Notes under the pieces: generated by a model
Databases searched by the model: none
The model's input: only the letters and a program-made list of their open reading frames with translations
What the model was told of the DNA's origin: nothing
Assembly: GCA_913009825.1 (NCBI GenBank)
Contig: CAJVYQ010000058.1
Span: 1-35,048, forward strand
DNA length: 35,048 nt
Direction: 5' to 3'
DNA from: an uncultured Deferribacteres bacterium
Lineage (GTDB): Bacteria > Zhuqueibacterota > JdFR-76 > DREG01
Program-made: the position numbers and the translations under genes
In this document: positions 3,874 through 35,048 of the stretch, piece by piece
How positions within the stretch are numbered: the stretch's first letter is position 1
Layout: each line of letters opens with the position of its first letter

Positions 3874-4830
3874 ATGGCAAAAGAATGTATCGTTTGTGGC
3901 AAAGTAAAAGGAAAACGAACCTGTCTTCCGGATGAAGATCAATTGATCTGCCCCAAATGTTGTGTAAAAATCAGAGGCAGAGATTGCGCCGGTTGCCGTT
4001 ATTATTTCCGGTCTGAGCAATATCATTCGGGGAAGAGAGAAGTTACGCGGGTTAAAAATTACATTATCGAACTAAACCCGGAAATTGATGATGCTGTTGA
4101 TAAAGCTTTGGCATTGGTGGAAAAGGGAAGGTTAACAGAAGGCGAGCGCGATATATCGAGATTGTATCAGCAATATCCATCCTATTCATACGGTGTTGTA
4201 CGCTATGGGTGTTGTGCAATTATTCAAAGGAGAATTCACAAAAGCGATTTTTTGTTTTGATGAGGCGATAGAAATATTCCCCGATTTTGTTGAAGGCTGG
4301 TACAATAAAGGCGCGGCTCACCAAAAAAAATTAGAAATTGACGGAATAGTTGTTTCATGCCGAAAAGTTATTGAACAGGGAGACTAAAAAGCAGCTTTCG
4401 TCCGTAAAGCCGACCATTTTCTGCAAAAAATTGAAAAGCAGATACTAAAAAGCGACGGTCTTACTTTGGATGAGTATATTCAAAGTAAAAATGAATTTGA
4501 TGAAGCATTTAAACTAATGGAAAGAAAATTGTGGCAGGAAGCGATCAAGCGATCATAGGATTTGAGAAAGTGCTTAAATTCAACCCTAATCATGTTCAAT
4601 CGCATGGTAACATGGGCCTTTGCTATAGCATACCGGGTGAAAGAGAAAAGGCTTTAAAAGCTAACAATAAAGCTTTGGAACTGGATCCGGATTATGCTCC
4701 GGCCCAAATAAATCGGACGGCTCTGTTGGCGCTGAAAGAAGGTGAAACTTTTCCCGGCCTGGAAATGAATTCGGTTAACTATTACAGAGAAAAGGTGGGA
4801 AAGGAAAAAAGACCTTTCCGGTTTTTTTAG
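3874..4830 (+). pseudogene. Decayed zinc-ribbon/TPR protein
   Basis: The N-terminal part, readable from ATG 3874, has an eight-cysteine zinc-ribbon pattern (C5, C8, C17, C26, C29, C30, C38, C41) and then helices. Tetratricopeptide-like helices continue in other frames. The reading frame shifts near 4193-4197, where the text carries on as a TPR around residues for AIFCFDEAIEIFPDF. It then meets an in-frame TAA at 4385-4387 while the protein-like text continues. It shifts again at 4539-4554, where the 8-base unit AAGCGATC is tandemly duplicated. Removing one unit joins LWQEA to IIGFEKVLKFNPN, a clean TPR. Three independent lesions make a functional product unlikely. Sequencing error could explain one of them but hardly all three. 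Its original role is unknown. Confidence 0.8.
4806..4829 (+). terminator. Possible Rho-independent terminator at the end of the TPR pseudogene
   Basis: GGAAA and TTTCC can pair around a short loop and are followed by GG and a run of seven T. The stem is only five base pairs, so this is a weak call. Confidence 0.3.
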
Positions 4831-4897: not shown

Positions 4898-6004
4898 ATG
4901 AATGAATTCCATAAAAACGGAAATTGCCCTTTTTGCAAGAGTGAGCATGTGCGCCGTCACGGCACCACTCCCAAAGGATCAGTTCGGTTTCGCTGCCTTA
5001 GTTGTAAAAAAACCTGGACTCTGCGTGACAACTATAAAAAATTTCCCGACAGTGATATTCTCACGTCGATCTATTTGCAAGGTCTTTCATATCGTCAGAT
5101 CCGGGCAATTTATCAAATGTCTCCCATGCGTCTTAATCAAAGGATCCGGGATTTTTTAACCGGATGTCCATCCTGGGAAGATTACCTTGATTCCTGCGTG
5201 AAAGACCACAATTATAAGGTGATCACATTGTACGGCGCACCATTGCAGACCAGCCATAAAGGGAGCGAAGGTAAAAATTTACATATTGCTCTGACTGTGG
5301 ATGCAATGGCTACCGTAGTCGTCGGCTACGAATGCGCATCGGAAGAGAGCGTTGTGATGTGGCGCAAGCTTCTTGCCCGCTTAGTTGACAGGAAGGTAAA
5401 AAATCCCCGGTTTTTGTACGATACTTCCAACTCTTTTATCGAAGAGGCAATCAAAGAAGTTTATCCCGATTCTCCGACCCAGGATTTTTCATTTCGATTT
5501 GTCTATGACCAAAAATTGCAGGAAAGAGCAGGTTCTCCCTCCGGTGCGGAAGATATGATGGACAATACAATCATCAATATTTTATCCCCGTTCGATTTTT
5601 TCTCCGATGGTTATATGTCCATTTTCAAGGATCCCAGAATGAAAAAAGTTATTCTTGGTGAGCGGGAACAGGTTTTACAGCGTTTGCTCACCAGGCTGCG
5701 CCGTATCGGCACCACCCGGCTGGAAGGGTTGATCTCCGCTCTGCAGGATCGTTTCAAAGCATTTCGGTTTTTAAAAGAAAATCCCCGGCCGATTATCAAC
5801 GGCTGGATCGCCTGGTATATGGTTCAAACCCTGGAAATCGGTTACAGCCGTCTTTCCTTATATATGCAGAAACCGGTATCCACCGGCTTCAGGAACTTTT
5901 CATGCGGTCAGATTCCGGAGCCAATGATCATAGATAACCAGGATCGACTTGTACGCTTTGTTGTCGAGATAGCAACACGACGATTACAGTTACCTCTGTT
6001 TTAG
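4898..6004 (+). CDS. Transposase-like protein with InsA-type zinc ribbon
   Basis: The 368-residue protein starts with a zinc ribbon of IS1 InsA type (CPFCKSEHVRRHG, then CLSCKKTW at about residues 10-41). A helix-turn-helix-like segment follows near residues 62-85 (LSYRQIRAIYQMS). The middle region, around residues 125-175, has spaced acidic residues (TVDAM and LYDTSN) that could be part of a DDE catalytic core, but I cannot place the full triad. The C-terminal half is helical and rich in Arg. The frame is intact, unlike the neighbouring TPR gene. I found no convincing terminal inverted repeats or target duplication around it, so it may be a solitary or domesticated transposase. It sits between the qmo and sat transcription units. 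Confidence 0.6.
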   Translation: MNEFHKNGNCPFCKSEHVRRHGTTPKGSVRFRCLSCKKTWTLRDNYKKFPDSDILTSIYLQGLSYRQIRAIYQMSPMRLNQRIRDFLTGCPSWEDYLDSCVKDHNYKVITLYGAPLQTSHKGSEGKNLHIALTVDAMATVVVGYECASEESVVMWRKLLARLVDRKVKNPRFLYDTSNSFIEEAIKEVYPDSPTQDFSFRFVYDQKLQERAGSPSGAEDMMDNTIINILSPFDFFSDGYMSIFKDPRMKKVILGEREQVLQRLLTRLRRIGTTRLEGLISALQDRFKAFRFLKENPRPIINGWIAWYMVQTLEIGYSRLSLYMQKPVSTGFRNFSCGQIPEPMIIDNQDRLVRFVVEIATRRLQLPLF

Positions 6005-12057: not shown

Positions 12058-12324
12058 ATGGATAAAAATAAGCGGCCTGTCTGTCCTCATTGCGGAGTAG
12101 AAATGTTACCATGGATGCCCCCCCCGGATTCTTCCTGGGGGGCAGCCCTTCAGTTTGTCTGTTTTAATGACAATTGCGAATATTATAAAAAGGGATGGCA
12201 ACACATGTGGGACAATTTTCAGGTGAAGGCATCATATCGCCATCGTTTCAATCCCGATACGGGTGAGGCAGGGCCGCTTCCGGCGTGGTCGGAGAATGCA
12301 CATAAAGACCGGATTACATTATAA
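12058..12324 (+). CDS. Small zinc-ribbon protein, Ogr/Delta-like
   Basis: The 88-residue protein has CPHCG near residue 9 and a second pair, C-x4-C in FVCFNDNCEYY, near residues 34-42, which would make one zinc site. A proline-rich turn (PWMPPPDS) separates the two halves. The spacing resembles Ogr/Delta-type zinc ribbons, but I do not know a function. It starts 9 bases after the hppA stop, so it is probably cotranscribed with hppA and could be translated by reinitiation. A stem-loop follows it. Confidence 0.7.
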   Translation: MDKNKRPVCPHCGVEMLPWMPPPDSSWGAALQFVCFNDNCEYYKKGWQHMWDNFQVKASYRHRFNPDTGEAGPLPAWSENAHKDRITL

Positions 12325-12410: not shown

Positions 12411-12447
12411 CATAAAATTATGAATCCTTTTGTGGCATGGAGGTAGA

Positions 12448-13260
12448 ATGAGCGAGTTAGAAAACCTTAAAAAGACCATACTGGAGCAGTATCCACGGCT
12501 TGATAAAGACAGTGAATTCCAATTTTCCTGCCACCCTGGCGTCTCCTGCTTTAATCATTGTTGTGCCGATGTTAACATCTTTTTAACCCCGTATGATGTT
12601 CTTCGTTTAAAGAATCATCTTAAAATCGATTCTCAAGAATTCCTGGATAAATACACACAACTCGTTACCGATCGCAATCAACAGCTTCCTGCTGTTCAGT
12701 TGAGAATGACAGACACAGAAACCAAACATTGTCATTTTGTCGATTTTGAAAAAGGATGTGCAGTTTATCAGAACCGGCCCTGGTCCTGCCGCATGTATCC
12801 TGTTGGGCAGGCTTCCCCAAGAGAAACGGAAAATAGCAGCGGCCAAAAATTCTATTTCATTCTGCATGAGGACGTTTGTCATGGCTTCGAAGCCGGTAAA
12901 AAATGGACCATTGGCGAATGGGTGAAAGACCAGGGCGTCGATGAATATGATAAATTTGGCGAGCTTTTAAAAGAGATCACTTTTCATGATTTTTTTGACC
13001 GGGGCAAGGTATTAACACCACAAAAGGTGGAGATGTTTTTCCTTGCCTGCTACAATCCGGATCGATTCCGGGATTTTATTTTCGGAACCACCTTTCTTAA
13101 ACGGTTCGATATGGATGACAAGATGCTTGAAAAATTAAAAACAGATGATGATGAACTTCTTAAATTTTCATTTGATTGGGTAAAATTCAGTCTGTTTGGT
13201 GAAAAGACGATTAAGATTCGGGAAGAAGTTTTAGCACAGGCAAACCAAAAAATAAAATAA
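12448..13260 (+). CDS. YkgJ-family cysteine-cluster protein
   Basis: The 270-residue protein has the cysteine pattern of the YkgJ (zinc/iron-chelating) family: C-x4-C-x3-CC near residues 28-39, TPYDVLRL just after it, then HC and CAVYQNRPWSCRMYP near residues 97-115. These cysteines probably bind a metal or Fe-S centre; the exact cofactor is not settled for the family. The remaining C-terminal half is helical and acidic. The frame is open from 12430, but GGAGG at 12439 points to the ATG at 12448. It lies 78 bases ahead of dsrA, which suggests a role linked to Dsr cofactor or metal handling, though that is inference. Confidence 0.8.
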   Translation: MSELENLKKTILEQYPRLDKDSEFQFSCHPGVSCFNHCCADVNIFLTPYDVLRLKNHLKIDSQEFLDKYTQLVTDRNQQLPAVQLRMTDTETKHCHFVDFEKGCAVYQNRPWSCRMYPVGQASPRETENSSGQKFYFILHEDVCHGFEAGKKWTIGEWVKDQGVDEYDKFGELLKEITFHDFFDRGKVLTPQKVEMFFLACYNPDRFRDFIFGTTFLKRFDMDDKMLEKLKTDDDELLKFSFDWVKFSLFGEKTIKIREEVLAQANQKIK

Positions 13261-13338
13261 CCATGCTTCACTTTGATTGTGAGGATCTTTTTATTTTAAA
13301 CAATGATAATTAATCAGTTTTAAGAGAAAGGAGTAGAG

Positions 13339-14550
13339 ATGGCGGACAAATTACCGAAGACGCCCATGCTTGACGAATTGGAAAAAGGGCCGTGGCCAAG
13401 CTTTGTCACTGAGATTAAAATGGCTGCTGAGAGTAATAAAATGAGTCGGGCTTTGTTGGGTGTATTGGAACGCTCTTACAATGAAAAAATTGGCCATTGG
13501 AAACATGGCGGTATTGTCGGAGTAATGGGATACGGCGGTGGCGTTATCGGACGCTACATCGATGACCCTGAAGCGTTTCCGGATATTTCGCATTTTCATA
13601 CGCTTCGGGTGAATCAGCCGTCTGGTTGGTTCTATACCTCGGATATTTTGCGAAAAATTTGTGATGTTTGGGAGAAACATGGTTCGGGCTTAACCAATAT
13701 ACACGGTTCCACCGGGGATATTGTCCTTCTCGGAACACGGACGGAAGAATTAGAGCCGACTTTTGCCGCTTTATCTGATATCGGATTCGATTTGGGTGGT
13801 TCCGGTTCGGATATGAGAACGCCAAGTTGTTGCTGTGGCCCAGCCCGTTGTGAATGGGCCTGTTACGATACACTGGCTCTCACGTATGATCTGACCATGA
13901 CCTATCAGGATGAATTGCATCGTCCGGCGTTTCCGTACAAGTGGAAATTTAAAATGAGCGGCTGCCCCAACGATTGTGTGGCATCCATTGCCCGTGCGGA
14001 TATTTCCATCATCGGTACCTGGCGGGACGATATTCAGATCGATCAGGATGCCGTGCGTGAATATGCGGACAAGGGCGTCGATATTTTTAACGAAATTATT
14101 TTGAATTGTCCCGGTAAATGCATGGAGTGGGATGACAAGGGACTCCATATCGATAATGAATATTGCCGGAAATGTATGCACTGCATCAATGTTATGCCAA
14201 AAGCATTGTCTCCCGGAAAAGACCGCGGCGCAACCATTCTGATTGGCGCAAAAGCTCCTATCGTGGAAGGCGCACAACTTTCCTCCGTTCTGGTTCCTTT
14301 TATGAAAATGGAACCACCCTACCAGGAATTAAAAGATATGGTAGAAAATATCCAGGATCTCTGGTGCGAAGAAGGCAAAAACAGAGAAAGAGTTGGTGAA
14401 TTTATTCAACGTGTCGGACTGGGTAACTTTCTGGAAGCGGTTGATATTGAACCGGTTGCCGAGATGGTTTCGCATCCGAGAGAAAATCCTTACGTTTTCT
14501 ATGAAGAGTATTACGAAGAGGAAGAGGAAGAAGAGGGCGACGACGAATAG
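13339..14550 (+). CDS. dsrA: Dissimilatory sulfite reductase alpha subunit
   Basis: DsrA forms the alpha2beta2 siroheme enzyme that reduces sulfite in the cytoplasm with DsrC as co-substrate. The 403-residue chain shows the siroheme-[4Fe-4S] ligands C165, C171, C209 and C213 in the order C-x5-C ... C-x3-C. It also has an inserted ferredoxin domain with C257, C276, C279 and C282. The C terminus ends in a run of Glu and Asp after residue 385, an acidic tail. AAAGGAG precedes the ATG. dsrB follows after 63 bases. Sequence alone does not decide between the reductive and oxidative type; the gene company (dsrD, no dsrEFH) favours the reductive one. Confidence 0.97.
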
Positions 14551-15984: not shown

Positions 15985-17394
15985 ATGAAACATACTTTTC
16001 CGCGTATTGTTCTTGCGGGTAGCGGTGGTGATTGTGGGAAGACCATGCTAACTCTTGGTCTTCTCTCTCACTGGCGCCGGCAGGGACACCATGTTTCCGG
16101 ATTTAAAAAAGGTCCGGATTTTATCGATGCCGCATGGATCAGCGAAGCGGCCGGGAGCCCGGCCAGAAATCTGGATGTGTATCTGATGGGCGATTCTGCC
16201 GTGTATCAATCGTTTGTACACCATGCGCGGCGTAGCGGTATCAGTGTGATCGAAGGTAGTCGGGGTATCTTCGATGGCATGGACGCGGAGGGAACGTACA
16301 GTACAGCCGAATTGGCAAAATTGCTGCAGGCACCGGTTATTTTAATCCTGGATGCCACTAAAATAACCAGAACTCTCGCCGCATTTGTTTTGGGATGTTT
16401 GCATTTGGACCCGCAGGTTCAAATTGCCGGTGTAATTTTGAACCGTGTAGCCGGAGAGCGCCATGAAAACGTTGTCCGCCGGGCTATTGAACAGAATACC
16501 GGAGTAGATGTGTTAGGCGCTTTGCCAAAAATGTCCCGGTTTGATCTTTTACCGGAGCGGCATCTGGGTTTGGTGACTCCTGAAGAACATGGCAAAATTA
16601 AAAAAGTGTGTGATGAACTCAGCCGAACCGTTGCGGAAAATGTGGATGTGGCTCGCATTTTTGAAATTGCCCATCGGGCGCCCCGCCTTGCGGAACCGGA
16701 GAAGAATCAATCCGGGATCCGAAAAACAGCGGCAAAAATTACTATCGGTTATTTCCAGGATTCAGCCTTTACTTTCTACTATCCGGAGAACCTGGAAGCG
16801 CTTGCAGCGGCAGGGGCGCATTTGACTCCCGTATCTCCATTGGAGGACAGTGGTCTGCCGCCTTTGGACTGTTTGTATATCGGCGGAGGATTTCCGGAGA
16901 CCCACGGAGACCTGCTCTCCCGGAACAGGTCATTATTGCGTGATCTGAAAGAGAAGGTGGAAAACGGGCTGCCGGTGTATGCCGAGTGCGGCGGGCTGAT
17001 TTTTCTGTCTCAATCTTTGAAATATGGCAATGAAATTTTTCCCATGTCGTCTGTTTTGCCGTTTCGGATCGAAATGAAAAGCAAGCCGTGCGGTCACGGT
17101 TATTGCGAATATGAGATTGACCGGGAAAATCCGTTTTTCCCGGTTGGCGTTAGAATAAGGGGGCATGAGTTTCATTATTCTACAATTGTTAATGGAATAG
17201 AGAAAGTGGCGACGGCTTACCGGGTTTTACGGGGACAGGGTACCAATAATGGCAGAGAGGGCTTCTTTTACAAAAGGACGATGGCAAGTTATTTTCATGT
17301 CCATGCATCCTCCTTTCCCGCTTGGGCAGATTGCCTGATCGATGCGGCAAAACGCTACCGAAGGGAAAGAAAACCGGAATTGCTTTTGGTTTGA
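15985..17394 (+). CDS. dsrN: DsrN, siroheme amidase (CobB/CbiA family)
   Basis: The protein is a cobyrinate a,c-diamide synthase homologue of 469 residues. In dsr clusters it is held to amidate siroheme to the siroamide used by DsrAB. The N-terminal P-loop-like motif GSGGDCGKTMLTLG lies near residues 12-25. The C-terminal class-I glutamine amidotransferase domain has the nucleophile C335 in YAECGG, the block GHEFHYS at 393-399, and a late HVH near residue 442. It starts 30 bases after dsrD, with only a weak AATCAGG ahead of the ATG. A true cobalamin role is possible, but no other cobalamin gene is present. Confidence 0.9.
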   Translation: MKHTFPRIVLAGSGGDCGKTMLTLGLLSHWRRQGHHVSGFKKGPDFIDAAWISEAAGSPARNLDVYLMGDSAVYQSFVHHARRSGISVIEGSRGIFDGMDAEGTYSTAELAKLLQAPVILILDATKITRTLAAFVLGCLHLDPQVQIAGVILNRVAGERHENVVRRAIEQNTGVDVLGALPKMSRFDLLPERHLGLVTPEEHGKIKKVCDELSRTVAENVDVARIFEIAHRAPRLAEPEKNQSGIRKTAAKITIGYFQDSAFTFYYPENLEALAAAGAHLTPVSPLEDSGLPPLDCLYIGGGFPETHGDLLSRNRSLLRDLKEKVENGLPVYAECGGLIFLSQSLKYGNEIFPMSSVLPFRIEMKSKPCGHGYCEYEIDRENPFFPVGVRIRGHEFHYSTIVNGIEKVATAYRVLRGQGTNNGREGFFYKRTMASYFHVHASSFPAWADCLIDAAKRYRRERKPELLLV

Positions 17395-17487: not shown

Positions 17488-17811
17488 ATGCCTGCGCAAA
17501 AAGAGCTTGATGCAAGACTCGTTGCGATTACGGAAAAATGGCAAAAATTTGAGGATGATAACATTAAAATGACAAGCGATATTATAGACAAACAGGTAGT
17601 GGAAATCATTCGTCAGGATTCGGTACAACACCGCCGGGTGCAACAATTCATTGCCGGGACAATGACAAAGGAAGCGGTGAGATTACAACCGGAAGAATTA
17701 GCAGATATTTGGGATTTAGTTGAGAAGCATATCGAAATGGAAGAAGAAACGGTACAGCTCGCTGAAGAGGCGAGGAGAGATACCGGTTTGCCGGCACAAA
17801 AATATTTGTAA
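17488..17811 (+). CDS. Truncated ferritin-like protein (3' end cut by a transposable element)
   Basis: The open frame codes for 107 residues, predicted almost all helical. Its pattern is that of a four-helix ferritin-like protein: a first helix with EKWQKFEDD, a second with DSVQH near residues 53-57, and a third with HIEMEEE near residues 85-91. The fourth helix, with its DExxH ligand, is missing. The last codon and the TAA at 17809-17811 come from the end of the element inserted at 17808. Without it the frame runs on through 18122-18217, giving 137 residues. The gene follows dsrN and precedes dsrL, so its ancestor was probably part of the dsr operon. The present product lacks part of the diiron site and is probably not functional as a ferritin-like protein. 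Confidence 0.8.
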   Translation: MPAQKELDARLVAITEKWQKFEDDNIKMTSDIIDKQVVEIIRQDSVQHRRVQQFIAGTMTKEAVRLQPEELADIWDLVEKHIEMEEETVQLAEEARRDTGLPAQKYL

Positions 17812-18115
17812 CTATTCAGGTGTGTGTTTTTTTGACAGGATTTACAGGATAAACAGGATTAAAAAAGTAGAACAAGGTTAAATCAATCGTAACCAATCAC
17901 GGAGATATTTTGAAATTCCGCCTGAGAGTAAACCCACAGGCTCAATATATGGAAGGGTGCTAAAGCACCCTTTAGGGCGCTTCCATTTTTTAGCCTGATG
18001 CTTTAGCCTCAGGCGACTATTTATTTTTTATCCCTGTGATCGGTTACAATCAATCTCTATGATTTATCCAGTAAATCCTGTTTATCTTGTCTAAGATTTA
18101 AACCTGAATAGTTAC
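17808..18115. mobile_element. Family-2 MITE-like element, copy F, with 8-bp target duplication
   Basis: The 308-base element has perfect 14-base terminal inverted repeats, GTAACTATTCAGGT at 17808-17821 and ACCTGAATAGTTAC at 18102-18115. It is flanked by the direct repeat AAATATTT at 17800-17807 and 18116-18123. Inside are nested inverted repeats: GACAGGATTTACAGGAT near 17833 has a counterpart near 18070-18090, AACCAATCAC near 17891 matches GTGATCGGTT near 18035, and two hairpins (GGGTGCTAAAGCACCC and GCCTGATG...CTCAGGC) lie in the centre. No transposase is encoded, so it would have moved in trans. Confidence 0.9.
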
Positions 18116-18217
18116 AAATATTTTATCAATTATTTACTGACGGATGAAAGAAAACATGTTGAGTTGTTGGATCGTTTAAATGAGATCAAAAAGGGAATGT
18201 ATCCATACATTTCGTAA
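18116..18217 (+). pseudogene. Detached fourth helix of the ferritin-like gene
   Basis: Right after the element the frame of the 17488 gene resumes and reads for 31 more residues to TAA at 18215-18217. It includes LLTDERKHVELLDRL, the DExxH-type helix missing from the truncated protein. No start codon or ribosome-binding site serves it, so it is a remnant. Confidence 0.8.
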
Positions 18218-18246: not shown

Positions 18247-19938
18247 ATGCCGGTTGTAGTGAAGAAAAAGAAGAAAATAAAAAGAGGTTTAGGATCGCGG
18301 GCTGGGGTGTCTTCCCGGGAACAATCACCGTACCGTCCATACCATGTTGAAAGATTGGCGTCCTGTATTGATGGATGTCCGCAGGGAACCAATATCCGCG
18401 GCGCGTTGGTGGAAGTACAGCTTGCGGAGAAGCATGAAAAAAGTTATGACCAGGCGTTTGAAGATGCCTGGCGCATCTGGACGGAAACCAATCCGATGCC
18501 GGCAGTTCTGGGACGGGTATGTCCTCATCCCTGTGAATCCGCTTGTAACCGGAAAGAGAAAGACGGCGCGGTAAGCATCAACGCTTTTGAGCGATTTTTG
18601 GGCGATTTTGCGCTGGAAAAGGGGTGCCAATTTACCAAAGAAAGCGATGAAAATTATTCAGAGAAGGTTGCAATCATTGGTGCGGGACCCGCCGGTTTGA
18701 CTTGCGCTTATCATTTGGCCAGGAAAGGGTACAAGCCAACTATTTTTGAATCTATGCCGAAACCGGGGGGGATGTTGCGCTACGGTATTCCCGCCTACCG
18801 TCTATCAAGAAAGGTTCTGGATGCGGAAATTAACCGGATTTTGGCTCTTGACATCAAATTGAAATGTGACATTACGGTTGGCAAAGATGTGGGCTTAGAA
18901 GATTTGCGCAAAGAATATGACGCTGTTTTTGTGGGCATTGGCGCCTGGAAAGGTCTGGTGCTGCACATCGACGGTGAAGATGCGGAAAATGTTTACAACG
19001 GAATTGATTTCCTTGCCCGCGCCAATGAGGGTGAAAAGATTGATATCGGTGACAAAGTACTCGTTGTCGGCGGCGGCGATACAGCCATCGATGCCGCACG
19101 GATCTCCAGGCGCCTGGGCGCGGATGTAACCGTTGTTTACCGCCGCACCCGCACCGAAATGCCGGCCATTGAAGAAGAAATTGAAGGTGCGCTGGAAGAA
19201 AAGATCAATATTGAATATTTGGTCGCGCCGGTGAAAATCATAAAAAATGGCAATAAAGCCGCAAAAATGATCTGCCGGCGCATGGAATTGGGCGAACCGG
19301 ATGAGTCCGGCAGACGCCGCCCTGTACCCATAACGGATACCGAATTTGAAATGGATTGCACGGCGGTTATTGCCGCTATCAGCCAAAATCCCAAATTAGA
19401 TGGCCTGGATGAACTTTCAGATGATGGCAGATGGATCGGTGCGGACAAAGAAACCTATGCTGCCAAACTGGAAAATGTCTTTGCCGGTGGCGATGCTTTT
19501 GAATTGGGCCTGGTGACTATCGCAAATGCCCAGGGTAGAAAAGCCGCCGATATTTTACATTACCGGTTCCGCGGGCTGGATATCCCCACCAATGGTAAGA
19601 TGGAAATTATTTCTCATGAAAAAGTAATGCTGCATTGGTACGAGGATAAACCGCGCAATGAACGGGAAATGGCGCCTGTGGCTGAAAGGTTCAGTGATCC
19701 CCAAAAAGAAATCCAGCAAGGATTGTCCACGGATCAGGCCATCGATGAAACCAAAAGATGTATGAGTTGCGGCCTTTGTTTCGAATGTGACAACTGCTGG
19801 AGTTATTGCCAGGATAATGCCGTTATTAAACCGTTACTGCCCGGTGAAAAATATGCCTTTAAAATGGAATTTTGCACCGGTTGTAAGAAGTGTGCGGAAA
19901 ATTGCCCCTGTGGCTACATTGAAATGCAATTGAAATAA
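18247..19938 (+). CDS. dsrL: DsrL-like NAD(P)H:acceptor oxidoreductase
   Basis: The 563-residue iron-sulfur flavoprotein is related to the small subunit of glutamate synthase. An N-terminal cysteine region (CIDGCPQG and CPHPCESACNR, residues 38-100) comes first, then the FAD motif GAGPAGLTCA near residue 143 and a second nucleotide-binding motif GGGDTAIDAAR near residue 276. Two C-terminal [4Fe-4S] motifs follow: CMSCGLCFECDNC, and CTGCKKCAENCPCGYIEM, whose CPCGYI ending is typical of DsrL. DsrL of sulfur oxidisers is longer (about 650 residues). The shorter form, from what I recall, matches the DsrL-2 type of some reducers and disproportionators. It would exchange electrons between NAD(P)H and DsrAB. 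dsrC follows after 55 bases. Confidence 0.85.
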   Translation: MPVVVKKKKKIKRGLGSRAGVSSREQSPYRPYHVERLASCIDGCPQGTNIRGALVEVQLAEKHEKSYDQAFEDAWRIWTETNPMPAVLGRVCPHPCESACNRKEKDGAVSINAFERFLGDFALEKGCQFTKESDENYSEKVAIIGAGPAGLTCAYHLARKGYKPTIFESMPKPGGMLRYGIPAYRLSRKVLDAEINRILALDIKLKCDITVGKDVGLEDLRKEYDAVFVGIGAWKGLVLHIDGEDAENVYNGIDFLARANEGEKIDIGDKVLVVGGGDTAIDAARISRRLGADVTVVYRRTRTEMPAIEEEIEGALEEKINIEYLVAPVKIIKNGNKAAKMICRRMELGEPDESGRRRPVPITDTEFEMDCTAVIAAISQNPKLDGLDELSDDGRWIGADKETYAAKLENVFAGGDAFELGLVTIANAQGRKAADILHYRFRGLDIPTNGKMEIISHEKVMLHWYEDKPRNEREMAPVAERFSDPQKEIQQGLSTDQAIDETKRCMSCGLCFECDNCWSYCQDNAVIKPLLPGEKYAFKMEFCTGCKKCAENCPCGYIEMQLK

Positions 19939-20344: not shown

Positions 20345-20480
20345 GGAACTATTCAGATCTGCTACATTAATAAACGACCATCATGCTTCGAGTCCGCTCA
20401 GCATGGCTAATTTAAGCCAGCCTGAGCGGAGTCGAAGGTTTCTTGGGCAATAAACGACAGGCATACCCGAATAGTTACGT
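20345..20480. repeat. Family-2 inverted-repeat element, copy G
   Basis: The ends are AACTATTCAG at 20347-20356 and GAATAGTTAC at 20469-20478, degenerate forms of the ends of copy F. The cargo differs: a hairpin with 22-base arms at 20386-20407 and 20416-20437 (CTTCGAGTCCGCTCAG and its complement, three mismatches). AATAAACGAC occurs directly repeated near 20370 and 20450. I see no clear target duplication. The element fills much of the 379-base gap between dsrC and the next gene. Confidence 0.65.
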
Positions 20481-26643: not shown

Positions 26644-28338
26644 ATGAATTGGCTGGTTGATATTCCCCAAAAAGTTGTCATCATCGGCGGACAGGCGGCC
26701 GGATGCAAAACCGCTGCTCGCCTTGCCCGGTTGTTGCCCGGTTGCCAAATTACCATTGTTGAGCAGGGCGAAATTATCTCCTTCGGCACCTGTGGACTAC
26801 CCTTGTTTGCTTCCGGTGATGTGGATGATCTGCTCGATCTGGCAAAGACTCCGTGGGGTATAGTTCGTGATCCTGATTATTTCCGGGATGCAAAAGGGGT
26901 GGAAGTTTTAGCCGCGACGGAAGCGCTGGCAATTGATCACGCTGACCGGATTGTAAAATGCCGGGAATTGGTGAGAGGTAAAATTATCGAATTGCCTTAT
27001 GATGCGCTCGTTTTGGCTACCGGCAGCAGACCATCCAAGCCGCCATTCAGCATTCCCGATTCTCCCCGCATCGGCCATTTTATTGAACCGGCGGATGCAA
27101 AAAAATTTCACCAATTGGCTCAGACCGGGGAAATTGGTTCGGCTGTTATCCTGGGCAGCGGTTTTATTGGTGTTGAACTGGCGGAGGCGATGGTAAGTTT
27201 GTGGGGCATTGAGACAACCCTCATCGAAATGGAGAACCGGGTGTTGCCGGCCATGGCAGACGCTGCCATTGCACAGCAGCTTTCCGCCGTTCTGCGAAAA
27301 AATGATGTGACACTTCGCCTGAATTGCGGCGTTTTGAAAGTGTCATGCGAAGATAATGGCTTGCCAACCGTCTATCCGGATGATAACACCTCGCTGCAGG
27401 CCGATTATGTATTTGTCTGTCTGGGCCTGTCTCCGAATACTTCATTGGCGGAGTCTTTGAATATTGCGATTGGTCCCAGTGGCGGTTTCCTGACCGACGA
27501 ACAGATGCGGACATCCGTTCCCGGTATCTGGGCCGCGGGAGATTGTGCAGAAGTGAAAAATCTGGTTACCGGAGAACCGGATTGGTTTCCCCTCGGGTCG
27601 CTGGCAAATCGTCAGGGCCGAACTGTTGCCGATAGCATTGCCCATCGGGATACCTGTTTCCCCGGCGCTGTCGGCACCTCATCGGTTAAAGTATTTGATT
27701 TCACCCTTGCTGCTTCCGGATTGTCTGCCTGGAAAGCGAAACGATTTGGCATAAATAACAGAACAGTGTGGGCCACCTTTCCGGATCGACCCGATTATCA
27801 TCCGGAAAAAAAGAATCTGTACACTTCCATGATTTACGATCCGGCAACATTGAAAATATTAGGTTTCCAGGCGGCGGGTTTTGGCGAAGTCACCCGTTAC
27901 GTGGATGTGGTATCCGCCCTGCTTGGCAAAAATCTTACTGCAGCGGATCTGCTGCAACTGGAACATGCTTACACTCCTCCCCATGCATCGCCGGTTTCGC
28001 CCCTTAATCATTTGGGGGCGATGATCCTGGCGCAGGAGAAAGACAAAGTTCAATCTGTTGCACCGGATTTGTCCGGGTTTAACAGCGGGGTCTTGTTGGA
28101 TGTGCGCACTGAAGATGAACATAAACACGCGCCTCTCGATCATGGTGAAACCATGATCCCTCAGGATCAACTGAGACGGCGTACGGATGAATTGGATCTT
28201 ATGCAGCCGATTCATGTGATCTGCCGGCGCGGTCCCCGGTCTTATGAAGCGGTTCGATTTTTAATGAACCGCGGCGCCAAACAGGTGGATTATCTCGGCG
28301 GCGGGACGGCCATGTTATTATCCGAAGAAGAGGAATAA
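26644..28338 (+). CDS. CoA-disulfide/persulfide reductase fused to a rhodanese domain
   Basis: The 564-residue protein has a flavin-dependent disulfide reductase part, residues 1 to about 450. It shows the FAD motif IIGGQAAGCKTA, the single redox cysteine C50 in SFGTCGLPL as in CoA-disulfide reductases, an NAD(P)H motif GSGFIGVELAEA near residue 175, and the second FAD block IWAAGDCAEV near residue 295. The C-terminal rhodanese domain, residues 460-564, has its active cysteine C527 in CRRGPRS. Fusions of this type reduce CoA persulfides or polysulfide with NAD(P)H. The gene is followed after 1 base by hemA. In this setting it could handle sulfane sulfur in the cytoplasm; that is inference. 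Confidence 0.85.
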   Translation: MNWLVDIPQKVVIIGGQAAGCKTAARLARLLPGCQITIVEQGEIISFGTCGLPLFASGDVDDLLDLAKTPWGIVRDPDYFRDAKGVEVLAATEALAIDHADRIVKCRELVRGKIIELPYDALVLATGSRPSKPPFSIPDSPRIGHFIEPADAKKFHQLAQTGEIGSAVILGSGFIGVELAEAMVSLWGIETTLIEMENRVLPAMADAAIAQQLSAVLRKNDVTLRLNCGVLKVSCEDNGLPTVYPDDNTSLQADYVFVCLGLSPNTSLAESLNIAIGPSGGFLTDEQMRTSVPGIWAAGDCAEVKNLVTGEPDWFPLGSLANRQGRTVADSIAHRDTCFPGAVGTSSVKVFDFTLAASGLSAWKAKRFGINNRTVWATFPDRPDYHPEKKNLYTSMIYDPATLKILGFQAAGFGEVTRYVDVVSALLGKNLTAADLLQLEHAYTPPHASPVSPLNHLGAMILAQEKDKVQSVAPDLSGFNSGVLLDVRTEDEHKHAPLDHGETMIPQDQLRRRTDELDLMQPIHVICRRGPRSYEAVRFLMNRGAKQVDYLGGGTAMLLSEEEE

Positions 28339-28339
28339 A

Positions 28340-29572
28340 ATGGCGGAAAATCAGATGGAAAAAACGGAACGGGAAAACCTTTTAATATGTGGGATCAGCC
28401 ATCATTCCGCTTCTCTGGCAGAAAGAGAACAGTTACAGGTGAACCGGCATGAACTGCCTAAAGCCCTAAAAACCTTCATGTCTATTCAGGGCGTCACGGA
28501 GGTGGTCATTCTGTCAACCTGTAATCGCTTTGAAATTTATTTCTGCACCACCAAAAATGATCGCGCCATCGATGTTTTGTACCGTTTTTACCGGAAATTC
28601 AGAAAGCTTGATATCCGTCCTTTGGCGCACCTTTTTTACACAAAACATGCCAGTTCTGTAGTGCGGCATCTGTGCCGCGTAGCGTCGGCCATGGATTCTC
28701 TGGTGCTGGGCGAAACCCAAATTATCGGACAGGTGCGCCAGGCTTACAGTCTAGCGTGCAGCTTTAAAACTCCCGGGAAAATTTTGCATAAAGCGTTTCA
28801 TGCCGCCTTCCGGGCCGGAAAAGCGGTGAGGAGCGAAACGGCAATCGGGGCAGGACAACGATCCGTCGCCGGAGAAGCCGTTGCCATTCTAAGAGAAAAA
28901 GTCCCGCCGGAAGCCATGATTTTGATCACCGGCGTGAATCAAAACACCAAACTTGCGGCCAAATGTCTTTATGACGCCGGTTACCACAATCTGATGTTTG
29001 CCAATCGCACCAAATATAAAGCCGAAAAGCTGGCTGCCCAATTTGATGCCGACGGGTTCAGTCTGGACGGCATTCAGGATAAGTTGAACCAATGCCAGGT
29101 GCTGATCTCCTGCACCGGTGCGCCGGATTTTATCATTTCCGCCGATCAGGTAGCAAAACGGCTCGAAATAAAAGACGGCGGTTTTGTCATTGTCGATATG
29201 GCGGTGCCCAGGGACGTGGATACAACAGGTATCTCCGGTAAAAATCTCCAGGTAATCGACCTGCAGGACCTGAAGAATTACCTTGAATTGCAAAATTTGC
29301 AGCGGAAGGCACAATTCCCGCCGGCGGAACAGTTGATCGAACGGGAAGTAAGTATGTTTCAGGCGTGGCTGGAAACGTGCGAAGACCCGGTGCTGAGTAA
29401 CATTGCCGAAGAATTTGAGCAGATCCGGCAAAAAAAACTGGCCGAACTGGCAAACGATTTATCGCCGGAAGAACAGAAAAAAATGGATGATTTTTCCCGC
29501 AAGCTGGTGCGGCAGATGCTGAGTGTGCCCAAAAAATATCTAACTGTGGAGCAAAGCCGGGAAAAGCAGTAG
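28340..29572 (+). CDS. hemA: Glutamyl-tRNA reductase
   Basis: HemA reduces glutamyl-tRNA to glutamate-1-semialdehyde, the first step of tetrapyrrole synthesis in the C5 pathway, which feeds siroheme and haem. The 410-residue protein has the N-terminal GISHHSASLAERE, the catalytic cysteine C61 in STCNR, and LVLGETQIIGQVRQAY near residues 118-135. The NADPH-binding loop, usually GAGxx, reads GVNQN at 198-202, a divergent form. ANRTKYKAEKLAAQF follows normally. The ribosome-binding site AAGAGGA lies inside the end of the preceding gene, so the two are coupled. Confidence 0.93.
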   Translation: MAENQMEKTERENLLICGISHHSASLAEREQLQVNRHELPKALKTFMSIQGVTEVVILSTCNRFEIYFCTTKNDRAIDVLYRFYRKFRKLDIRPLAHLFYTKHASSVVRHLCRVASAMDSLVLGETQIIGQVRQAYSLACSFKTPGKILHKAFHAAFRAGKAVRSETAIGAGQRSVAGEAVAILREKVPPEAMILITGVNQNTKLAAKCLYDAGYHNLMFANRTKYKAEKLAAQFDADGFSLDGIQDKLNQCQVLISCTGAPDFIISADQVAKRLEIKDGGFVIVDMAVPRDVDTTGISGKNLQVIDLQDLKNYLELQNLQRKAQFPPAEQLIEREVSMFQAWLETCEDPVLSNIAEEFEQIRQKKLAELANDLSPEEQKKMDDFSRKLVRQMLSVPKKYLTVEQSREKQ

Positions 29573-29581
29573 CAATTTTTG

Positions 29582-29694
29582 TTAACCTGAATTGAGCGAT
29601 TGTAGGGCGATTCGCTGAATCGCCAACCGGATTTACATTAAAAATGAAAATCCGTTTTGTAACAAAAACAAGATAATCGCTCAATTCAGGTTAA
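29582..29694 (-). repeat. Family-1 inverted-repeat element, copy D
   Basis: This copy has perfect 20-base terminal inverted repeats (TTAACCTGAATTGAGCGATT at 29582-29601 and its complement at 29675-29694). They begin and end with TTAA, which may be a target duplication. A hairpin GGCGATTC-GCT-GAATCGCC lies next to the left end, and a second (CGGATTT with AAATCCG) is inside. The orientation is opposite to copies C and E. Confidence 0.85.
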
Positions 29695-29853
29695 ATATCC
29701 TTCGTAACTTTGTGCCTTCGTGGCCTAAATTTATGATTCATGCAGGCCAAAGGAAGAATGAAGAGAACAGCAGAATATGTCTTCCGCTCTTAATTAATGA
29801 TTGTATGAATAAATTCGGATAAGGTCGAATAGACCGGTAAAAATGGAGCAGTT

Positions 29854-30549
29854 ATGGCGGAACAAAATAGTAAAAGAGTTTATTTTCCTATTCTAATCTC
29901 TCTCTCGGATAGAAAATGTCTGGTGATTGGCGGCGGACCTATCGCGCGGCATAAAGTACAGAGTCTGGAAAAGTTTTCACCGCAGCTTACTATCCTTGCG
30001 CCGGAGATCGATGAGAAACTGGCGGAGATCGCCGTAAAAAATAAATTTGAAATAATCCGTAAAGAATATAAAACCGCCGATCTGGAAGGTTTTGATCTGG
30101 TGATTGCCGCAACCGGCAAAAAGAAGGTGAGCGCGCAAATCTGGAAAGATTGCAAAGAAAAGAAAATTCTGATCAATGCGGTTGATGATCCGGAACATTG
30201 TGATTTTATTCTGCCGGCCACCGTCAAGCGGGGCGATCTGACGGTTTCGGTTGGTACCCAGGGGCGTTCACCCTTTTTAACCAAAGAATTGCGCCGGTGG
30301 ATGAATCGCATGTTTACGCCGGAATGGGAAGAAGTGATTGACCTGGCAGCGGATTTCAGAAAACAAGTATTTGCCCGTTATTCAGCAAAACAGAGAGAGG
30401 AACGGGACGACTGTTTTGCACGATTTTTGGAAGTGGACTGGGCGGCGTTGCTGCGGGATAAAAGACCTGAAGAATTGACCAAACTTGTTGCCGCCATATT
30501 AGAGGGAAAAAAGTTGAAATTAGAAAATAATGGAAGTGGCGGTGAGTAG
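29854..30549 (+). CDS. Precorrin-2 dehydrogenase / sirohydrochlorin ferrochelatase-type protein
   Basis: The 231-residue protein is related to the N-terminal part of CysG and to Met8p. It would oxidise precorrin-2 to sirohydrochlorin and may insert iron. The NAD-binding motif VIGGGPIARHK lies near residues 24-34. The conserved NAVDDPEHCDFILPA, with D111 and D112, is present. The block GRSPFLTKELRR precedes the C-terminal helical domain. No uroporphyrinogen methyltransferase domain is attached. The supply of siroheme to DsrAB fits its place after hemA, although copy D and other spacer sequence separate the two. Confidence 0.88.
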   Translation: MAEQNSKRVYFPILISLSDRKCLVIGGGPIARHKVQSLEKFSPQLTILAPEIDEKLAEIAVKNKFEIIRKEYKTADLEGFDLVIAATGKKKVSAQIWKDCKEKKILINAVDDPEHCDFILPATVKRGDLTVSVGTQGRSPFLTKELRRWMNRMFTPEWEEVIDLAADFRKQVFARYSAKQREERDDCFARFLEVDWAALLRDKRPEELTKLVAAILEGKKLKLENNGSGGE

Positions 30550-30699: not shown

Positions 30700-31152
30700 A
30701 TGAAATTCGAATCAATTAACCAAATCCTGGATTTCGCTATCGAAAAAGAGGAGAATGCGGCACAATTTTACACCGATTTGGCTGCCGGAATGGACAAGCC
30801 GCATATCAAACGGGTCTTTGTGGATTTTGCCCTCGAAGAGAAAAGTCATAAAGCAAAATTGGCATTGGTGAAAGCGGGACAATTGGAGCTTTCCAAACCC
30901 GAAGCGATCATGAATCTGAAACTGGCCGAAATGGTTTCCGATGTAGACCTGGGGGGAGATTTCGATTACCAGAAAGCCCTGATTGCTGCGATGAAAAATG
31001 AGAAAGCTTCCTACAAACTCTACACAGATCTGGCGGAAATGACAGATGACGAAAAAGTGAAAAACATATTTTTAAGCCTTGCTCAGGAAGAAGCCAAACA
31101 TAAACTCCGTTTTGAAATAGAATACGATGAAACCATTTTGACGGAGAATTAA
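30700..31152 (+). CDS. Rubrerythrin-like diiron protein without rubredoxin domain
   Basis: The 150-residue, all-helical protein has two ferritin-like helix pairs. The iron ligands are visible as E in EKEENAAQFY near residues 16-25, the ExxH in LEEKSHKAKL near 46-55, E in KNEKASYKLY near 100-110, and the ExxH in AQEEAKHKLRFE near 127-138. There is no C-terminal CxxC rubredoxin-type domain. Proteins of this type commonly reduce peroxide in anaerobes, but their electron donors vary. A strong AAGGAG lies ahead of the ATG. It stands alone and is distinct in sequence from the broken ferritin-like gene at 17488. Confidence 0.88.
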   Translation: MKFESINQILDFAIEKEENAAQFYTDLAAGMDKPHIKRVFVDFALEEKSHKAKLALVKAGQLELSKPEAIMNLKLAEMVSDVDLGGDFDYQKALIAAMKNEKASYKLYTDLAEMTDDEKVKNIFLSLAQEEAKHKLRFEIEYDETILTEN

Positions 31153-34836: not shown

Positions 34837-35048
34837 TTAACTATTCAGGTTGCCCGCTAATATCGCTAAAAAACGCGAATCGTTAACTATTTTGTCCTAT
34901 TCGTATGATTCGTGTAATTCTCGGGCTGAACAGGCAGACGATTTTTTCAATTTCTCTGCGCCCTCCGCGTCTCTGCGTTAAAAAAACAGGCGCTTTAAAA
35001 CGCAGAGACGCAGAGAACGCAAAGGAAGCGGATTTGTTCAAAAAACTA
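34837..35048. repeat. Family-2-type end and inverted repeat at the window edge
   Basis: TTAACTATTCAGGT at 34837-34850 is a family-2 end; the other end is not reached. Inside, arms of about 24 bases at 34955-34978 and 35001-35024 form an inverted repeat built on CGCAGAGACGC. The 411 bases after the receptor gene hold only this and copy E. Confidence 0.6.

Follow-up and report, generated by a model that had tools for sequence, protein, structure and literature searches.

The stretch analyzed here (the window) comprises 35,048 nucleotides of contig CAJVYQ010000058.1 from an uncultured Deferribacteres bacterium (assembly GCA_913009825.1). Between its dsrN and dsrL genes lies an ORF encoding only 107 residues, referred to below as gene X. 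This locus raises the question of whether the ORF is a naturally short gene or the remnant of a longer one and, in the latter case, what the intact protein was and whether it belongs to the machinery of dissimilatory sulfite reduction.

A nested insertion truncates gene X

The ORF ends at a TAA codon (17809–17811) that is supplied by an inserted element. As the first-pass annotation had described, this element is MITE-like, with perfect 14-bp terminal inverted repeats (TIRs) and an 8-bp target-site duplication (TSD) on both sides. Joining 17488–17807 to 18124 onward, that is, removing the element plus one TSD copy, yields an open frame of 137 residues, again as claimed. The locus is built up as follows (coordinates in the window).

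15985–17394, forward strand: dsrN, a member of the cobyrinate a,c-diamide synthase family, next upstream and named in part from its position in the cluster
17488–17811, forward strand: truncated ORF of the four-helix gene X, 107 residues, between dsrN and dsrL
17592/17593, forward strand: site at which 21 bp (7 codons, in frame) have been deleted from the helix A–B turn
17800–17807, no strand: left copy of the outer TSD, AAATATTT, 8 bp
17808–17821, forward strand: left outer TIR, GTAACTATTCAGGT, 14 bp
17808–18115, no strand: composite MITE, 308 bp (outer element alone, minus the inner element and the inner TSD, 141 bp)
17881–17888, no strand: left copy of the inner TSD, AATCAATC
17889–18047, no strand: inner MITE, 159 bp, TIRs GTAACC[A/G]ATCAC, located in the outer element
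18048–18055, no strand: right copy of the inner TSD, AATCAATC, a perfect duplication
18102–18115, reverse strand: right outer TIR, a perfect inverted 14-mer of the left one
18116–18123, no strand: right copy of the outer TSD, AAATATTT, 8 bp
18124–18217, forward strand: 3' portion of gene X cut off by the insertion, with helix D, the DExKH motif, and the KKGMYPY tail, ending with TAA at 18215–18217
18247–19938, forward strand: intact gene for a dsrL-like NAD(P)H oxidoreductase, next downstream

The outer TSD is palindromic, by which the inverted match grows to 23 nt. The 308 bp of the composite element contain no coding gene, and its RNA is predicted to fold into one long hairpin (z = −12.4). 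The earlier description of the insertion is correct as far as the outer element is concerned but missed the second, TIR- and TSD-bounded element nested within it. Since outer elements of the same kind also occur without an inner one, the outer element entered the gene first and the inner one later. The outer element, which is non-autonomous and has GTAACTATTCAGGT ends and an 8-bp TSD, landed at the start of helix D of gene X, so that the 107-residue product is missing the invariant DExKH motif; a second MITE then inserted into the first. Of the 66 homologues examined, none terminates at around 107 residues.

A second lesion and the status of the gene

Homologues were sampled by scanning one genome per species, which gave 63 loci; the 66 homologues consist of 59 full-length aligned proteins and seven further copies from whole-genome searches. 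An initial search of 147 genomes yielded a single relative, which shares 49% identity with the window copy and carries seven additional residues following K35. This segment, with the consensus T-x-N-P-h-h-R, is kept by all 66 homologues and is missing only in the window copy, at the 17592/17593 junction. With these seven residues absent, the reconstruction of 137 residues does not represent the ancestral protein, and the proposal that removing the element is enough to restore the intact gene does not hold. In an AlphaFold2 model of the homologue at locus L116 (described below), the lost residues (36–42) span the A–B turn and the beginning of helix B; the site of the MITE maps to where helix D starts.

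The 21 bp encoding the A–B turn were lost independently of the MITE insertion, and either lesion by itself should disable protein X. Gene X in this genome is very likely a pseudogene with two lesions, derived from a conserved gene for a dsr-linked four-helix protein of approximately 145 residues. No second copy was found in the same genome. The sat, apr, and dsr genes around the broken gene have open reading frames, so that an accessory gene appears to have been lost from an otherwise complete dsr cluster, a natural knock-out indicating that X is dispensable in at least one lineage.

Deletion aside, the remnant deviates at one of 17 (5' part) and one of 15 (3' part) of the positions that at least 90% of family members share, which is as low as in intact homologues. 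That nearly all conserved residues are kept in both gene halves argues for recent loss. For the earlier suggestion of a fairly recent insertion, the signs are mixed: the TSDs and the conserved codons look fresh, whereas the inner element is 17% diverged from the consensus of its family. This divergence may indicate a separate subfamily instead of age.

The low number of deviating positions, together with the fact that the deletion is in frame, also fits a different reading, namely that the 137-residue form was functional, the gap being natural length variation, and that the MITE alone killed the gene recently. We consider this improbable, because even the most divergent of the 66 homologues keep the segment and because, in the confident model, the segment makes up the A–B turn and the first turn of helix B, without which no connector joins the two helices. 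That the element or the deletion is an assembly artifact, or a variant confined to a minority of the strains in the MAG, is highly improbable: repeats do break assembly here, many MAG contigs ending at this TIR and the window contig inside one such element, but the two gene halves encode adjoining stretches of a single protein, and a misjoin would not yield this together with perfect TSDs at two nested levels.

Linkage of gene X to dsr genes in other phyla

The first-pass annotation took the gene for an undescribed dsr accessory linked to dsrN and dsrL and suggested looking for an uninterrupted copy between these two genes. Such orthologues do occur at the same place in other phyla: L116 (Bacteroidetes/Chlorobi MS-B_bin-24), the Kapabacteria loci L120 and L123, and L131 have X precisely between dsrN and dsrL. 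Uninterrupted copies also occur in other arrangements: L128 and L197 have X between dsrD and dsrL, and in L121 and L124–L126 (Ignavibacteria/Bacteroidetes) it immediately precedes dsrL-dsrC. The Acidobacteriota loci L127 and L130 carry X ahead of sat, with dsrL in divergent orientation, and in the Spirochaetes loci L112 and L113 it is the next gene after dsrP. In a protein tree, the twelve dsrL-linked copies, including that of the window, form one side of a branch with support 96/94. One genome, PL23a_bin.125, carries both X paralogues, one in each context.

DsrA is encoded in 44 of the 50 genomes that hold X. Among 388 genomes picked regardless of X, 28 have dsrA, nine have X, and eight have both, meaning that dsrA accompanies X in 8/9 cases, compared with a frequency of 28/388 in the whole set (Fisher p = 2e-9); when the genome that contains the window is left out, the corresponding figures are 7/8 and p = 3e-8. 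As X is present in only eight of the 28 dsrA genomes, it marks a subset of these. Genomes of the same family and the same order have neither dsrA nor X and hence offer no near comparison for the dsr cluster.

Gene order, phylogeny, and co-occurrence agree, and they support X as a dsr accessory of unrelated sulfate/sulfite reducers that has been overlooked so far. We hold with high confidence that X is a real dsr-associated family. The explanation as a whole, a double-lesion pseudogene of dsr-linked X, is the best one for this locus and a probable one.

One member of the family has been depicted before. Thiel et al. 2019 (PMC6338057) reported the order dsrD-dsrN-hyp-dsrL-dsrC in Ca. Thermonerobacter, and the Ca. 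Thermonerobacter thiotrophicus MAG MS-B_bin-24 of that study corresponds to L116. The “hyp” gene belongs to the same family as X and occupies the same dsrN–dsrL position, but it is uninterrupted, whereas the window copy is broken; it was only drawn as hypothetical, with no family, structure, or function given. Our literature search found no paper that names X or mentions a dsr operon with a ferritin-like or rubrerythrin gene. X, so far recorded only as “hyp,” is a candidate for a missing part of the dissimilatory sulfite reduction machinery.

Fold and family relations of protein X

The invariant columns of X comprise WQxxE in helix A, DSxxH in helix B, HxxxE in helix C, and DExKH in helix D. 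The motifs highlighted in the first reading of the sequence (DSxxH, HxxxE, and DExxH) match these columns, HxxxE being that of helix C. The AlphaFold2 model of the L116 homologue (pLDDT 93, pTM 0.83) has four long helices (residues 4–34, 39–67, 75–105, and 109–139). The invariant pattern (E in helix A, H…E in C, and ExxH in D) resembles a four-helix diiron site; helix B has DSxxH and not the canonical ExxH. Based on these residues, X is likely a metal (diiron) protein. In the numbering of the rebuilt protein, E22, D44/S45, H48, H81/E85, D114/E115, and H118 would bind metal, probably two irons.

No Pfam or NCBIfam family above its cut-off covers X. Against rubrerythrin (PF02915), X scores 18.3 bits, the cut-off being 22.8; membership by profile was rejected, with an hhalign probability of 0.4%, which is not significant. 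A Foldseek search with the model gave no match at E < 0.001, and the best TM-scores were approximately 0.4 with an rmsd near 20 Å, meaning that the AlphaFold2 monomer superimposes only in part. The modeled monomer may be the opened form of a swapped dimer. Weak, non-significant matches were to ferritin, rubrerythrin, the ribonucleotide-reductase small chain, and designed diiron bundles. A PDB sequence search with the X profile returned only designed helical bundles and chance matches, and a PHROGs search returned nothing.

X thus resembles the rubrerythrin/ferritin-like superfamily (PF02915 and PF00210) in its four helices, all of which bear carboxylate/His motifs, as well as in its neighborhood of stress clusters, but it differs in falling below the Pfam cut-offs, in giving no significant profile or fold match, in the DSxxH of helix B, and in having no rubredoxin domain. 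The notion of a ferritin-like diiron protein holds with respect to the four-helix architecture, whereas the two irons are what we infer from the conserved residues.

A putative role close to sulfite reductase

In the sister clade, X occurs in oxidative stress clusters, for example in the order Fur-X-AhpC-ferritin-like-desulfoferrodoxin-rubrerythrin-ferritin-AhpC at locus L119. At L085, L095, L101, and L105, X adjoins a homologue of the rubrerythrin encoded in the window (30700–31152). NCBIfam NF009413, which describes a fusion of a GltD-like protein and a ferritin domain, is matched by the window DsrL at model positions 333–827 and by the window rubrerythrin at model positions 866–996. The Pfam neighbors of X in other contexts did not point to any single further pathway.

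By analogy, X would work in a rubrerythrin-like manner, removing peroxide or O2 or handling iron near the oxygen-sensitive sulfite reductase, and DsrL may feed electrons to it. The stress-cluster context and NF009413 make a DsrL-fed peroxide/oxygen reductase the favored role, with iron handling as the main rival; we give oxygen/peroxide protection rather than iron supply slightly less than an even chance. A more specific proposal is tentative. X would be an undescribed small metal (probably diiron) family specific to dissimilatory sulfite reducers, whose dsrL-linked branch removes O2 or peroxide at the sulfite reductase with electrons from DsrL, thereby acting as an oxygen shield of DsrL-type sulfate reducers that the present lineage has dispensed with. 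If X protects Dsr from oxygen, this would bear on the seeming oxygen tolerance or respiration of many sulfate reducers known from MAGs.

X could also be a general iron or oxidative-stress protein that travels with dsr genes and has no specific Dsr role. Such a protein would be at home in the Fur/AhpC/desulfoferrodoxin/rubrerythrin clusters of the sister clade, and the dsr organisms concerned are anaerobes that meet oxygen. However, X is nearly confined to dsrA-bearing genomes even outside dsr clusters, the one dsrL-linked clade holds its linkage across phyla, and PL23a_bin.125 keeps the two paralogues in separate contexts; we regard a purely general function as possible but doubtful. Supply or storage of iron for sirohaem or Fe–S assembly of DsrAB/DsrL, with no oxygen detoxification, is rather unlikely. 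The gene for sirohaem amidation (dsrN) and sirohaem synthesis genes are close by in several loci, and ferritin genes neighbor the sister clade, but X, at approximately 145 residues, has little beyond the bundle and shows no sign of ferritin-cage assembly, nor did the fold search return a close ferritin.

The miniature elements and the search for their transposase

As an event, the insertion is genuine and of an ordinary type; the interest lies in the gene that it broke. The outer TIR 14-mer (at most one mismatch) has 214 + 221 matches (approximately 435) in the 5.1-Mb genome, compared with 0 + 1 for a control pattern consisting of the TIR read backward. Exact outer ends number 181 in this genome and 0–4 in each of 29 relatives. 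Many of the fully read copies with these ends have identical 8-bp flanks, yet their cores are quite different, which indicates a large, lineage-restricted set of miniature elements. The inner family has 13 further genomic copies of approximately 156 bp, most of them with 8-bp TSDs. Like bacterial MITEs in general, these elements are short, noncoding, and multicopy, with TIRs, TSDs, and a strong hairpin, but they stand out by the unusually large number of ends, by several unrelated cores, and by the nested insertion of a second family. No paper naming these ends was found in the literature.

Both MITEs would be mobilized in trans by a DDE-type transposase making an 8-bp staggered cut. IS66 elements have ends beginning with GTAA and an 8-bp TSD, and the present elements share both features. 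Nevertheless, IS66 was rejected as the source: the genome gave no match to the IS66 transposase (PF03050), while positive controls matched, and the IS66 loci of relatives do not have these MITE ends. Among the part of the ends that was examined, no autonomous partner or transposase with the same ends was found; repeats are often lost from MAGs.

The window itself contains a transposase-like ORF with an InsA-type zinc ribbon and a Mutator-type domain (4898–6004), located between qmoB and sat and adjoined by broken TPR-like frames (3874–4830). It was rejected as the MITE source, as no such ends lie beside the gene. Directly behind dsrC is another element of this type (20345–20478), which measures 134 bp and has the same ends as the MITEs above, although its ends and flanks are imperfect. 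The contig terminates inside a copy of a 347-bp subfamily of these MITEs (34837–35048), and the many MAG contigs ending at this TIR show that the elements limit assembly.

Further features of the sulfur gene cluster

Genes for an 88-residue protein (12058–12324) and a CxxCxxCC protein (12430–13260) precede dsrA; the same order follows aprA in L116 and L123, and the two genes match two “hyp” genes after aprA in PMC6338057. The adjoining interval (13260–13339) is without qmoC, which L116 has between the CxxCxxCC gene and dsrA; qmoC was found on another contig of the genome (G000:C72; 44% identity). Between dsrC and dsrM, the window encodes a protein with an RsbRD N-terminal domain (PF14361; 20610–21251), a homologue of which occupies the same place in L128. 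Finally, dsrP is followed by CoA-disulfide-reductase-like, HemA-like, and sirohaem-synthase-like genes (26644–30549), and the same block follows dsrP in L083, L087, and L089.
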